Source of the DNA: Aquificota bacterium
Lineage (GTDB): Bacteria > Aquificota > Aquificia > Aquificales > Hydrogenothermaceae
Reading direction: 5' to 3'
Length of the DNA: 64,000 bases
Assembly (NCBI GenBank): GCA_013153635.1
Contig: JAADDZ010000014.1
Location: forward strand, 1-64,000
The position numbers and the translations under genes are program-made. Below the pieces are notes generated by a model. That model was not told the DNA's origin. It worked only from the letters and a program-made list of their open reading frames with translations, and made no database searches. Shown piece by piece: positions 37,990 through 63,029 of this stretch (the first letter of the stretch is position 1; each line of letters opens with the position of its first letter).

Positions 37990-40949
<2,960 letters not shown>

Positions 40950-40986: not shown

Positions 40987-41406
40987 TCACTCTTCTATCC
41001 ACTTATATAAAGAGCTTTTCCCGTTTTTTATATTTTGGGGTCTTTTTGAATTTAACTTTAAAAATTCTCTAACGATTTCTTTTTTTCTCTGGGCTTCGAA
41101 TTTTCTTGTAAATCTAGTTTCATACAGTTTGAGTACTATCTGGGCTTCTTTTTTTTTGGCTACTAATAAGTCTTTTATATCTTCTAGCAGATTTTTAGCT
41201 TTATTATGGGTTAAGGTTAATGAACATACCTTTTTCCCCTCTCTTAGATTGCCTCCATACGTATTTTTAACTATATTTAGAACTTCTTTATCAGAGCTTC
41301 TAAGTATTACTTTTATGTATACTGAATTTGGTGAGTTTTTGACTTTTACTATAGATATTTTTCCACAGGAATCTAAAAGTCCAGCTATGTAATGTTTTTG
41401 ATGCAT
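40987..41406 (-). CDS. Free-standing LAGLIDADG-fold protein lacking the catalytic acid
   Basis: 139 residues. The start HYIAGLLDSCGKISIVKV matches the LAGLIDADG helix plus first strand of homing endonucleases, followed by the family's pattern RSSDKEVLNIVKNTYGG and LLVAKKKEAQIVLKL. The acidic residue at motif position 8 (the metal-binding Asp/Glu) is Cys14, so cleavage is doubtful. Only one motif is present, so it would act as a dimer. No intron or intein is in sight. The ATG directly abuts the ispG stop, and carB begins 37 bp downstream: it behaves as a resident gene and may be a DNA- or RNA-binding protein. Confidence 0.8.
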   Translation of the reverse strand: MHQKHYIAGLLDSCGKISIVKVKNSPNSVYIKVILRSSDKEVLNIVKNTYGGNLREGKKVCSLTLTHNKAKNLLEDIKDLLVAKKKEAQIVLKLYETRFTRKFEAQRKKEIVREFLKLNSKRPQNIKNGKSSLYKWIEE

Positions 41407-42465
41407 CTATAGAGTGTTTATCTCCTTTAAAAGTTCTTCTACCATCTCTTGTTCTGTTACTCTTTTTATAGGTTGTCCTTTTTTAAATAAAATCGCTGAT
41501 TTGTTCCCACAGGCTAAACCTATGTCTGCTTCTTTAGCCTCTCCTATAGCATTTACTACACAACCCATTATCGCTACTTTTATCGGTTTATCTATCCCTT
41601 TTAGAGAGTCTTCCACCTTTTTTACTACCTGTGGGAGATTTACTTCTATTCTTCCACACGTGGGGCATGATATTATCTCTACTCCTTTTCTTCTAAGACC
41701 TAGAGACTGTAATATCTTATAGGCGGTATCTATTTCTTCTTCTGGGTCTGCGGTTAGAGATACTCTAACTGTATCTCCTATTCCCATATACAGTAGTATC
41801 CCAATACCTACAGCTGACTTTATAGAACCTTGTTTTAAAGAGCCTGCCTCTGTTATCCCTATGTGAAGAGGAATATCTGTTTTTTGGGCAAATATCTTAT
41901 TTGCTTCTATATTCTGTAAAACATCTGAACCTTTTATAGATACTTTAAAGTTCTTAAATCCTATACTTTCAAAGAACTCTGACCAGTACAAAGCACTTTG
42001 CGCTAGAGCTTCAGCTGAAGGATACCCATATTTTTCCAAGAGTCTTTCTTCTAGAGAACCAGAGTTTACCCCTAATCTAACCGCTATATTTCTCTTTTGG
42101 CACTCTAGAAGAATATCTCTTATCTGTTCTTTGTCGTTTATATTCCCCGGATTTAAACGGATACCGTGAATCCCACTTTCCAACGCTTTAAATGCTATTC
42201 TAGGGCTGAAGTGTATATCAGCTATAACTGGTATTGGAGAGTTTTTAACTATCTGTGGCAAAGCTTGAACATCTTTTTCTGTAGGAACTGCAACCCTTAT
42301 AAGTTCACAACCAGCTTGATATAGTCTGTTAATCTGATTTAATGTATTTTCTATCTCATAGGTTTTCGTATCTGTCATAGATTGAACAACTATGGGAGCA
42401 TCATCTCCTATCTTTACGTTACCTATATAAACTGGTCTTGTTTTTCTTCTTTTTATCATTTCCAT
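41407..42465 (-). CDS. ispG: 4-Hydroxy-3-methylbut-2-enyl diphosphate synthase (flavodoxin/ferredoxin)
   Basis: An Fe-S enzyme of the MEP isoprenoid pathway. At 352 aa it starts with RRKTRPVYIGNVKIG and VVQSMTDTKT. The cluster Cys lie in ISCPTCGR and MGCVVNAIGE, and the Glu/Asp-rich IGLACGNKSA follows. It is the first gene of ispG-LAGLIDADG-carB and diverges from the DsrE-like gene. Confidence 0.97.
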   Translation of the reverse strand: MEMIKRRKTRPVYIGNVKIGDDAPIVVQSMTDTKTYEIENTLNQINRLYQAGCELIRVAVPTEKDVQALPQIVKNSPIPVIADIHFSPRIAFKALESGIHGIRLNPGNINDKEQIRDILLECQKRNIAVRLGVNSGSLEERLLEKYGYPSAEALAQSALYWSEFFESIGFKNFKVSIKGSDVLQNIEANKIFAQKTDIPLHIGITEAGSLKQGSIKSAVGIGILLYMGIGDTVRVSLTADPEEEIDTAYKILQSLGLRRKGVEIISCPTCGRIEVNLPQVVKKVEDSLKGIDKPIKVAIMGCVVNAIGEAKEADIGLACGNKSAILFKKGQPIKRVTEQEMVEELLKEINTL

Positions 42466-42551
42466 AGTTTTATTATAACTACATATTGCTTATTTTGATA
42501 AATTAATCTACTTTTAAGTTCGTGCTATAGTCTAGATAGGAGGTATTTATC

Positions 42552-57827: not shown

Positions 57828-60800
57828 TTAGAAATTTTGTTTTAATCTTCTAAAGAAAGGAATTATAAGAATTAAAAGCCAGATAGGAACAGTGGTAGCT
57901 CCATAAGAACAGCCACCACCTCCTAGTCTTGTTTTATTTCTTATGTCTGTATCTGCATATATAGGAATCTTAGCTAAGGAAAAGAGAGGGTCGTTAGATT
58001 CTACGTATATACCACTTTTAGAGTCATTTGAATCTAACGGCTCATATAGTACTCCTATGGTACACTCTTGTCCAGCATCTAAGGAGAATGATTTTGAGCC
58101 ACAAGGATTACTTCCATAATCATAATTTATCATTACATTACCTATACTATCTGGATAAATATCTGTGATATTTAAGGTAGTGTTTCCGATATTTTTGATA
58201 GTTATTGTGTAAGGACTAGAAAGTGTTTTTGGATATGTGAGTCCAGTATATATCTGTCTAGGTTTTATTACGATATGTGGTTGAGGGTCTGTTATAGACC
58301 TTCCGTATATTTTACTTATCAAAATACTGTCATCGCTTAAAGTTACTTTTAGTGTAGCGTTTTTGATACCTTGAGAGGTTGGTTTGAATCTTATTCCAAT
58401 TGTACAGCTTTGGTTTGATTCTATCTGAAGATTTTCACTGCAAGGGTTATCTCCTGCATTTTGTACTAGTTCAAATTCACCGGTTGTATCTATAAGCTCT
58501 ATATCTGAAAGTTTTATACTTGTCTCTCTTATATTAACTACTTTTAGGGTTTTAATGTCTGATTGAGTATTTGGTGGCACATTTTCAAATTCATCAAATA
58601 TTTCTGGGTCTATGTATACATAGTTCTGCTTTGGCAATATGGCGGCTGTAGAGATTCTATATTCTGATACAGCCCCGTTACTTTCTTTTACGAAAAGAAA
58701 GACTTCTTTGTGTCCTTCTTTTTTTGGAGTTAGATATATCAGAACATCACACTTTTCTCCGGGTAGTAGGCTGACCTGTCTTCCATTGCACAGTTGAGAT
58801 TTATCTATATATAATCCTTGATTTTCTCTTTTATCAAATTCTAGACTGAACTCTTCATTATCAGAAAGATACATATCTTCTATGTTAACAGCTTGTTGGG
58901 ATATATTAGATACCTGTATTACATATGGGAAAGAGACTTCTCCTACATATGTGAATATTTCCATTGGGTATTTTTTGTTTCTAGATAGAGCTATATGATT
59001 TGTTTGGTCATCTTTTTCTTCTGGATTATAAAAATGTATTTTTACATCTATAGTTACCTCTTCTTCTAACGGGTCGTTTGTTCGTATTTTTATTTTTTCT
59101 TTTATCGTTTTTGATTTATCTGCCTCTTTTATAGCTTCACAGGTAGCCGTGGACAACCATATAGTAAGAGGACACGTTTCTCCGGGATTTATCTCTATAC
59201 ATTCCAAGAATGCATATATCGTTTTTGAAGGAGTATTTTCTACCTTGAGTATACCTTCTCCAGTATTTTTGATAAGTACTGTGGATATTATTTCACAAGC
59301 ATTTTTTGTAGGAATGTATGTGTCAATCTCTCTTGTACTAAGATAGATTGCTGGAACTGCGGTAGGTCTTCCGTATCCTAATATTTTTAGTTTTATTTTT
59401 TTTCTATCTGGTGCGTTTGATTTTATCTCTAAAGAAGATTCATACTCTTTTGTATCTAGTGGGGTAAATCTTATCTTGATAGTACAGTAATCTCGTGGGG
59501 AGATTTCGATGTCGTTTAGAGTTCCACAAGGTCTGTCTCCTCCATTGGCATCTACTTCAAATACATTGTCCTTTAGTTTAGGTTTTATCTCGTAAACAGT
59601 TAATAGGCTATTACCTAAGTTTTTGATTATTAATGTTTTTTCTGCTGTTTGAGGTAGAGGTACTTTACCTAAATCTATGATGTTATCTGGTGATACTAAT
59701 ATATACGGTGCTGTATACAGACCTGTTCCATAGAGATAGATTTTGAATTTATCGTTTATTGGGTCATTAGATTTTATCTCTATGGTAGCTTTTTCTCTCT
59801 TTTCTTTCTGGGGTTGGAAAGCAACGGTAAAGGTACATACTTCTTCTGGTTCTAACTCTATTGGAGCAGTACCACATGGGTTAAAACCACCGTTAAGGTT
59901 TATTTTAAAGTTTTCATTTTTAAGTTTTATCTCAAATATCTGTAACTGTAGTTCTCCTGTGTTTTTCACTATAAACTCTTTTTCTTCTGTGTTTCCTATA
60001 AATACTCCACCAAAATCATACTCTCTTGGAGTTACTGAAATAATAGGGCTTTCATACCTTCCTTCTGCGTACAGATTGATTTTCAATTTTTTATTTTGAT
60101 AGTCGTTAGACTTTATCTCTATAGAGGATTTGTATTTTTTGTCTTTTTGAGGAGAGAATACTACTCCAAAGGTACACTTTTGATTTGGTTGTATAGAGAC
60201 AGGAGTGCTACCACACGGATTTGCCCCCTTGTTTAAGTCGAGGGAGAAATCTTTTCCTATCTTTATCTCTTCTACAACTAACTCTGAAAAACCTTGATTT
60301 TCTATACTAAAGGTCTCTTCTACAGTTTGGTTCACGATAACTGTACCAAAATCGTACTCTTTTGGCTCTACTACAATCAAAGGATATATAGGCTCAATAG
60401 CTTCTCCACTAAGGGATATACTTTTTGTATCTTCTCCTGAATAAAGGAGAACTTTTTCTTTTTTCTTTCCTACAGTTTTAGGTTCAAACTTTACAGATAA
60501 AGTACAGTAGTCATCTTCTAATATAGAGAAAGGAACTTTTCCACAGGGTCTATCTCCTTCAAATAAATCTATACTAAATTCTGCGTTTTGGTTCTCTTTG
60601 AATGTAATATCTGTAATCAATAAAGGAGCTTCCTGTGAGGAGTTTATCACTTTTATAATCTCTTCTTTTTCTTTACCTATCATCAGCTTTTCAAAATTTA
60701 TGCTAGAAGGCTCTAGTTTTATCTTTGGTTTTTCTAGTATACCTAGTACATATAGTATTTTGTTTGGTTCTAGTTTGTCGTTTGATTTAATCCTTATAAT

Positions 60801-63029
60801 CATAGAATAATTCTCTTTTGTGTTATCACCGATAAACACAACTTTAAAGGTACACTCTTGGTAAGGAGGTAGGACTTTCATATAATCACAAGGATTTGTT
60901 CCAGATAGGACATCTATGTACATTCCTACAGTGGAGAATAGCACTTCTATATCCAAAATGTTCAAGTTATAAGGACTATTGTTTATTACCTTTATCTCTT
61001 TTTCTAATTTTTGGGTGTTTTTGGATTTTACTAGTTTTATAATCTGGGAATCTGGCTCTGTAGTTATCTCTGGAGTAGCCTCTGTACTTCCCTTTAGATT
61101 TACATTTACAAACCCTATCTCCCTTTCTTCGTTATCTTTTTTAGGGTCTTCTCCTACGATAGAGAGCATAGCATAATGATAGCCAGCAGATTGAGGGTTG
61201 TAAACGATTTCTACAAAACAGTAATCATCTTTTGGTAGAGTATCAAGAGATAAGCAAGGTCTTTCATCTGTATCTTCTTTTATATAGAAGTACTGTCCTT
61301 TTACAAGGTTTAATCTTAGCTTTATATCTTTATTTGAGGTGTTTTTTATTTTTAATAGACTGGATTTTTGACCATTTACAGATACGTTCTTAAAGTATAT
61401 CTCCTTTTTTGAAACTTCTATAACACTGTTTTGGATAGCATTGATAGAAAAGTCTCCTTTTAAGGTAAAAGTATAATCTCCTTCAGAAGTGTTTATATAC
61501 AAATTACTTGTTATATCACTAAAATCAGGCGTGCTAACAGAAAAAGGAGGTGTAAACGCTATCTTTATTTTACATTCTTCTAAGAATTCTAACGACTTGC
61601 CACTACATTCATCTTCTAATATGTGGAAGTACTGATTATCTGTGAGATAGATATTGTTAATATCTAAATATCCTTTTCCTACATTTCTAATGATTCCTGT
61701 TTTAACGTCGATTTTTGTATCTGTTGATATAAATATGTACTCATCAGAAGTTGAAAGGTTCATACAAAATTTTGGATTAGAAGTATCAGTGAGCATATTA
61801 AAAATATCCAATTTACCACAAGTTAAAGCTTGTCCATACAAGTTAGATACCAATCTAGATGTAGATAAAATCCTTTCCTTTATTTGAGACACAGATAAGT
61901 TAGGCTCATGTGATTTTAAAAGGGCTACCGCTCCAGCCACAAAAGGAGCTGAAAGAGAAGTTCCTGATAATACATCGTAACCATAAGTATTAAGTTCACT
62001 GTTAAAAACGCTCATAGGAACTGTAGTAAGTATGTCTTCTCCCGGGGCGAATATATCCACTGTATTGTAACCGTAGTTTGAATATACTGCTCTATCCTCT
62101 GTAGGAGTTAAAGCTCCTACACATATGATATTGTCTGAATTATAAGCACATGGATATATAGGATTGTTATCTGTATTGGTTATATCGTTTCCAGCAGCAG
62201 ATACTAGAATGATTCCAAAAGTATCTAATATGTTTATCAGCTTTTCTGCGGCTTTAGAAAACTCTTCCTCTCCAAAACTCGCATTTATAGCAACAATGTT
62301 AACCCCTTTGAAGAATTTTTGTTTTAAGATGTACGAAAAACATTGGGCTATATCTTCAGAAAAAAGGGAATAGTTACCAGCAGTACAAGACATAACTTTC
62401 ACATTCCAACCTACACCTGCTATACCTATACCGTTATTTCCTACTGCCGCAATAACCCCTGCCACAGCAGTTCCATGGTTGCTACTAGTATAATCTCCAC
62501 TTCCTATACCTTCCAAAGCATTCCACCCGTAACAATCATCTATATAACCGTTTTGGTCATCATCTCTTCCGTTATCACATATCTCATCAGGATTTTTCCA
62601 AAGGTTATCTTTTAGGTCTACATGAGTATAATCAACCCCACTATCCACTATAGCCACAACTACATCACTTGAGCCTGTTTCTATATCCCAAGCCTTAAAG
62701 GCATTGATAGAACTTAAACCCCACTGATTTAGTATAAATTCATCATTAGGTATAGTATCCAAGAGCTTGTATTTGTAGTTAGGTTCAGCAAATTCTATGT
62801 AAGGCTTTTCCTTGAGTTCTTTTATGAACTCTTCAACGGTCTTTCCTTGAGGAACCCACACACTATAAATAGTATCAAGCAGATGACTTTTTATTTGGTA
62901 CTCTGAAGCTAAAGCTTTTTCATCTTTCACCGATACTATTACTGTACTGTCATCATATTCAGCTGAATAGGAAAAATAAAAGGTAAGTACAGATATTAAA
63001 GATACAACCAAAATGTTTAGTAGCTTCAT
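57828..63029 (-). CDS. Giant S8 protease with ~11 Cys-paired repeat domains and a GGGCS-type C-terminal tail
   Basis: 1733 aa. Signal peptide (about 1-23), propeptide, S8 domain with D129 (AIVDSGVD), H185 (HGTAVAG) and S358 (GTSLSAP); the same EICDN...DDCYGW insert as in the protease at 17679. From about residue 420 to 1690 there are roughly eleven ~105-aa ASH/choice-of-anchor-D-like repeats, most with a pair of Cys (NPCG...QKCTFGVVFSP type) about 10-20 residues apart. The end is GGGCSYG, a hydrophobic helix and FFRRLK. The tail and paralogy suggest surface display via the type II system (inference). SD GGGAGGCG. Confidence 0.92.
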   Translation of the reverse strand: MKLLNILVVSLISVLTFYFSYSAEYDDSTVIVSVKDEKALASEYQIKSHLLDTIYSVWVPQGKTVEEFIKELKEKPYIEFAEPNYKYKLLDTIPNDEFILNQWGLSSINAFKAWDIETGSSDVVVAIVDSGVDYTHVDLKDNLWKNPDEICDNGRDDDQNGYIDDCYGWNALEGIGSGDYTSSNHGTAVAGVIAAVGNNGIGIAGVGWNVKVMSCTAGNYSLFSEDIAQCFSYILKQKFFKGVNIVAINASFGEEEFSKAAEKLINILDTFGIILVSAAGNDITNTDNNPIYPCAYNSDNIICVGALTPTEDRAVYSNYGYNTVDIFAPGEDILTTVPMSVFNSELNTYGYDVLSGTSLSAPFVAGAVALLKSHEPNLSVSQIKERILSTSRLVSNLYGQALTCGKLDIFNMLTDTSNPKFCMNLSTSDEYIFISTDTKIDVKTGIIRNVGKGYLDINNIYLTDNQYFHILEDECSGKSLEFLEECKIKIAFTPPFSVSTPDFSDITSNLYINTSEGDYTFTLKGDFSINAIQNSVIEVSKKEIYFKNVSVNGQKSSLLKIKNTSNKDIKLRLNLVKGQYFYIKEDTDERPCLSLDTLPKDDYCFVEIVYNPQSAGYHYAMLSIVGEDPKKDNEEREIGFVNVNLKGSTEATPEITTEPDSQIIKLVKSKNTQKLEKEIKVINNSPYNLNILDIEVLFSTVGMYIDVLSGTNPCDYMKVLPPYQECTFKVVFIGDNTKENYSMIIRIKSNDKLEPNKILYVLGILEKPKIKLEPSSINFEKLMIGKEKEEIIKVINSSQEAPLLITDITFKENQNAEFSIDLFEGDRPCGKVPFSILEDDYCTLSVKFEPKTVGKKKEKVLLYSGEDTKSISLSGEAIEPIYPLIVVEPKEYDFGTVIVNQTVEETFSIENQGFSELVVEEIKIGKDFSLDLNKGANPCGSTPVSIQPNQKCTFGVVFSPQKDKKYKSSIEIKSNDYQNKKLKINLYAEGRYESPIISVTPREYDFGGVFIGNTEEKEFIVKNTGELQLQIFEIKLKNENFKINLNGGFNPCGTAPIELEPEEVCTFTVAFQPQKEKREKATIEIKSNDPINDKFKIYLYGTGLYTAPYILVSPDNIIDLGKVPLPQTAEKTLIIKNLGNSLLTVYEIKPKLKDNVFEVDANGGDRPCGTLNDIEISPRDYCTIKIRFTPLDTKEYESSLEIKSNAPDRKKIKLKILGYGRPTAVPAIYLSTREIDTYIPTKNACEIISTVLIKNTGEGILKVENTPSKTIYAFLECIEINPGETCPLTIWLSTATCEAIKEADKSKTIKEKIKIRTNDPLEEEVTIDVKIHFYNPEEKDDQTNHIALSRNKKYPMEIFTYVGEVSFPYVIQVSNISQQAVNIEDMYLSDNEEFSLEFDKRENQGLYIDKSQLCNGRQVSLLPGEKCDVLIYLTPKKEGHKEVFLFVKESNGAVSEYRISTAAILPKQNYVYIDPEIFDEFENVPPNTQSDIKTLKVVNIRETSIKLSDIELIDTTGEFELVQNAGDNPCSENLQIESNQSCTIGIRFKPTSQGIKNATLKVTLSDDSILISKIYGRSITDPQPHIVIKPRQIYTGLTYPKTLSSPYTITIKNIGNTTLNITDIYPDSIGNVMINYDYGSNPCGSKSFSLDAGQECTIGVLYEPLDSNDSKSGIYVESNDPLFSLAKIPIYADTDIRNKTRLGGGGCSYGATTVPIWLLILIIPFFRRLKQNF

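Follow-up and report, generated by a model that had tools for sequence, protein, structure and literature searches.

A probably non-cleaving LAGLIDADG protein encoded directly after ispG in Hydrogenothermaceae, probably recruited as a nucleic-acid-binding protein

The gene that follows the isoprenoid gene ispG in the 64,000-nucleotide stretch of Aquificota DNA analyzed here (the window) encodes a true LAGLIDADG relative that has lost the catalytic acid of this superfamily. The protein occurs in one family of hot-spring bacteria, Hydrogenothermaceae, and was probably co-opted to bind DNA or RNA. We lean toward a reading in which it is a domesticated, non-cleaving protein, likely a basic homodimer that recognizes a particular site in DNA or RNA and acts as a local regulator. 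The open reading frame (139 aa, 41406..40987, minus strand) is intact, with its ATG at 41406, and the stop codon of ispG ends at 41407, immediately before it. The upstream gene is ispG (41407..42465, minus strand; Pfam GcpE, E=5.6e-143), and the downstream gene is the N-terminal half of carB (39267..40949, minus strand; CPSase_L domains). The first-pass annotation had described an intact frame between ispG and carB with a start abutting the ispG stop; both the frame, to the base, and the placement held, and the strand, which it had left unstated, is minus. The nonapeptide that it had reported reads IAGLLDSCG (residues 7–15, 41362..41388, minus strand), with Cys14 (codon TGT, 41365..41367, minus strand) replacing the catalytic acid at motif position 8.

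The single protein gave a weak, below-cut-off match to Pfam LAGLIDADG_1 (E=0.006) and none in a scan of genome contigs, where a profile version returned six MAG loci. A profile of 17 members retrieved I-CreI among PDB sequences, at E ~2e-4 for the wild type and down to 5e-9 for engineered forms, and 16 of the 17 orthologues matched the profile of PHROG 5046 (best 1.4e-10; source-genome protein E=5e-10). An AlphaFold model built with six aligned sequences (pLDDT 84.9, pTM 0.78) found its best Foldseek matches in the PDB in I-CreI, I-MsoI, I-CvuI and I-Vdi141I (TM ~0.7), and the I-TnaI structure (5gkk) was among the fold matches. The alpha-beta-beta-alpha-beta-beta-alpha fold, including the motif helix, is thus recovered by profile, AlphaFold and Foldseek, and these profile, PHROG and structure matches show the LAGLIDADG relationship suggested in the first-pass annotation to be genuine rather than a chance nonapeptide. 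No Pfam or NCBIfam model covers the orthologue family as a whole, and Pfam matches to S17e, DUF1571 and others in single members were rejected as chance-level.

Loss of the acid extends across the family. Motif position 8 is Cys in eight of the 17 orthologues, Ser in four, Gly in four and Thr in one, so that the cysteine whose persistence had been in question is not itself kept, whereas the absence of an acid is universal. The first-pass annotation had named orthologues with Asp or Glu at this position as evidence that would speak against a non-cleaving protein; there are none among the 17. The same position is Glu in 15/15 phage relatives from PHROG 5046 and in 4/4 rRNA-intron relatives from the sister family. 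The 17 orthologues form one clade (support 100/100), which makes a single ancestral loss the simplest account. In I-CreI, Lys98 is the catalytic lysine; its equivalent is Lys or Arg in most orthologues and Ser or His in others. Motif position 6 is acidic (Asp or Glu) in all 17, which might suggest that DNA is still cut or nicked through a different residue. We regard this reading as extremely improbable: relatives with Glu at position 8 have an acid at position 6 as well, which therefore does not compensate for the loss, although it may allow residual metal binding. Signs of homing are likewise missing, with one fixed locus, a tree compatible with that of ispG and vertical inheritance, and no group I introns found in the family. 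Since the residue that defines LAGLIDADG homing endonucleases as enzymes is gone and no mobility was seen, the ispG-linked protein is probably not a functional homing endonuclease.

A profile scan of 136 Aquificota genomes, many of them MAGs, identified 18 orthologues, all in Hydrogenothermaceae and none in the remaining Aquificota; outside this phylum, the distribution was sampled by short-pattern scans only. Two ispG-LAGLIDADG loci of one sample series (L003 in G001 and L004 in G023) are identical in genomes assigned to different genera, which leaves 17 distinct orthologues; G023 is probably contaminated. In 18/18 carriers the gene lies directly after ispG, overlapping or abutting its stop codon or starting 1 to ~20 bases from it. 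At least three downstream contexts occur: an uncharacterized gene of ~105 aa (often with argB), carB (in the source genus only) and bioB (in another genus). In the source genus the ~105-aa gene sits elsewhere in the genome; the link between the LAGLIDADG gene and ispG has therefore outlived a rearrangement. The ~105-aa protein itself, which carries the motif HEDGQYWVD and has no Pfam match, is found between ispG and argB across Hydrogenothermaceae (L053, L054; L073 at G000:C28:357-668).

The expectation that the gene always accompanies ispG stands for every carrier and fails as a family-wide rule, since it is absent from 13 relatives whose ispG region was examined, 11 of which have the ~105-aa gene directly after ispG. 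Mapped onto the ispG tree, presence and absence require at least four changes, and the earliest-branching lineage of the family has the gene; this pattern fits an early gain followed by several losses, a history that is compatible with the tree but unproven. Missing from these 13 relatives and C-terminally truncated in G014 (113 aa), the gene is dispensable.

Substitution patterns in the coding sequence indicate purifying selection. Pairwise dN/dS (NG86) ranged from 0.06 to 0.30, with many dS values saturated; the unsaturated pair L010/L012 (dS 0.64) gave 0.19, and L005/L006 (dS 1.08) gave 0.22. Four pairs showed an excess of changes at third codon positions (p=3e-4 to 3e-11). The dN/dS comparison proposed in the first-pass annotation thus came out on the side of constraint, and the widespread decay that it had named as contrary evidence was not seen: all 17 distinct orthologues have intact frames, so that decay, as in the truncated G014 copy, occurs but is not the rule. 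The intact frames and dN/dS argue against a pseudogene. At the amino-acid level the gene has evolved several times faster than ispG. The ispG topology remained acceptable for the LAGLIDADG alignment (p-AU 0.067), although this value is near rejection and some horizontal transfer may have occurred; the permuted trees shown were rejected, the best of 50 random ones lying ~370 log units below the ispG topology.

The clade has also acquired constraints of its own. S28, H67, K69 and F99 are invariant, and E104 and R107 are close to it; the phage relatives conserve none of the six. The two central ones belong to H67-N68-K69 (41200..41208, minus strand); E104 and R107 lie in a basic C-terminal helix (residues 101–118, 41053..41106, minus strand), just before which stands F99. 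Conversely, the Trp found at the position of residue 63 in all 15 phage proteins is Leu or Ile in the clade. The protein of the window has a net charge of +17, and all 17 orthologues fall between +11 and +19. Of all the signs that the protein has taken on a new function instead of idling, these invariants, gained after catalysis was lost, are the strongest. They weigh, together with the 17 intact frames across the family, the purifying selection and the survival of the gene through the divergence of seven genera, against the proposal that it is an inert relic, an inactivated homing endonuclease gene decaying in place. That proposal draws on the patchy presence of the gene, its fast evolution, the truncated copy and the homing life cycle, which predicts decay once an element is fixed (PMC13405050), and we judge it quite unlikely.

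Among the phage-type single-motif LAGLIDADG proteins, the orthologue family is best described as a new, domesticated branch. Members of PHROG 5046, such as gene 25 of Streptomyces phage Braelyn, which lies beside thyX, share with it the single motif, a similar length and similar segments (YAGLFDGEG, FGG and the helix pattern). The phage proteins differ in three ways: position 8 is Glu and the residue-63 position Trp; H67, K69, F99 and E104 are missing; and their genes lie next to or within thyX, methylase or terminase genes. PHROGs and several RefSeq records give PHROG 5046 the name HNH endonuclease; the members that we examined (L075, L090 and L094) are LAGLIDADG proteins. The homodimeric intron endonucleases I-CreI and I-MsoI share the fold (TM ~0.7, E ~1e-6) and the profile match; however, identity is ~20%, and the ispG-linked protein is without the catalytic acid, lies outside any intron and shows no mobility.

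In the history that we propose, an early member of Hydrogenothermaceae would have received a phage-type free-standing LAGLIDADG homing endonuclease gene between ispG and its downstream neighbor, and the catalytic acid would have been lost, and the protein domesticated, ahead of the diversification of the family. From then on, inheritance would have been mainly vertical, with translation together with ispG or directly behind it, and several lineages would have lost the gene. The present protein would most likely form a strongly basic homodimer, a state suggested by analogy with I-CreI, that occupies a specific site without cutting it and acts as a local regulator. We consider DNA a likelier ligand than RNA because the fold is of the I-CreI type and because a search of 41 Hydrogenothermaceae genomes under strict filters turned up no group I intron.

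RNA binding is nevertheless a serious rival, since the LAGLIDADG protein of the 23S rRNA intron in Thermotoga neapolitana has maturase-like activity and stabilizes its own intron at high temperature (PMC3984707). According to this alternative, the protein would not bind DNA but would assist RNA as a maturase or chaperone, with rRNA or the operon mRNA as examples of its substrate. Its very basic character and the presence of I-TnaI among the fold matches are in keeping with such a role, which we rate as unlikely given that no cognate intron is in sight in those 41 genomes; the narrower idea of a maturase for a resident intron was rejected on the same ground. In the sister family, five genomes (G056, G045, G055, G039 and G054; L042–L046) have 23S rRNA genes with insertions that encode LAGLIDADG proteins with an intact catalytic Glu, and two of these insertions are group I introns by Rfam. 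These proteins come from the same bacterial order and superfamily as the ispG-linked protein but are rRNA-borne, keep Glu at position 8 and occupy a far branch of the tree. An origin from them was rejected on this distant placement, which must be read with caution because long branches meet there.

The phage affinity also invites an account in which the dead enzyme occupies the site that an active relative from a phage or intron would cut, and so shields the host or outcompetes the invader. The nearest relatives are indeed phage enzymes that look active, with Glu at position 8; the patchy presence of the gene would suit such a role. Searches of viral contigs and plasmids, however, returned no relative of the window protein and those of phages only weak ones, with none found infecting Hydrogenothermaceae, and the permanent linkage to ispG would be left unexplained; we hold this account to be very unlikely.

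For the local regulator that we favor, a more specific form can be put forward tentatively: a dead single-motif homodimer that would use its former homing surface, without an added HTH, to regulate the ispG operon, and that would represent a second independent domestication in bacteria besides WhiA, of phage-type origin. A candidate cis element, the 13-mer TAGATTAATTTAT (42498..42510, minus strand), lies upstream of ispG, does not vary among the three source-genus genomes and has a quasi-palindromic core. It occurs once or twice in each of these genomes, where by our own estimate about one copy of such an A/T-rich 13-mer would presumably be expected by chance, and it may simply be promoter sequence. 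A target site inside ispG was also considered and rejected: the 3' end of ispG in carriers shows no excess synonymous conservation that would mark a special site.

WhiA (DUF199) provides the precedent for domestication of a bacterial LAGLIDADG fold with loss of the catalytic residues. Its LAGLIDADG domain has lost metal binding and catalysis, and the HTH performs DNA binding (PMC3781837), so that the role of the LAGLIDADG part itself is obscured. WhiA combines a larger N-terminal LAGLIDADG domain with a C-terminal HTH; the ispG-linked protein, in contrast, stops at residue 139 and gave no HTH or WhiA family match. Its single motif and lack of an HTH exclude it from the WhiA family. Bare, presumably dead and under selection, the ispG-linked family can therefore show directly what the fold does after cutting ends. 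In the literature searched, no paper named LAGLIDADG with ispG, Hydrogenothermaceae, Aquificales or Sulfurihydrogenibium.

Two further features of the window were recorded. A 5S rRNA occupies positions 1–79, cut by the contig start, and no 23S rRNA was found in the source assembly. At positions 57828–63029 the window encodes a 1733-aa subtilase-family protein with many ASH/HYDIN-type Ig-like repeats.
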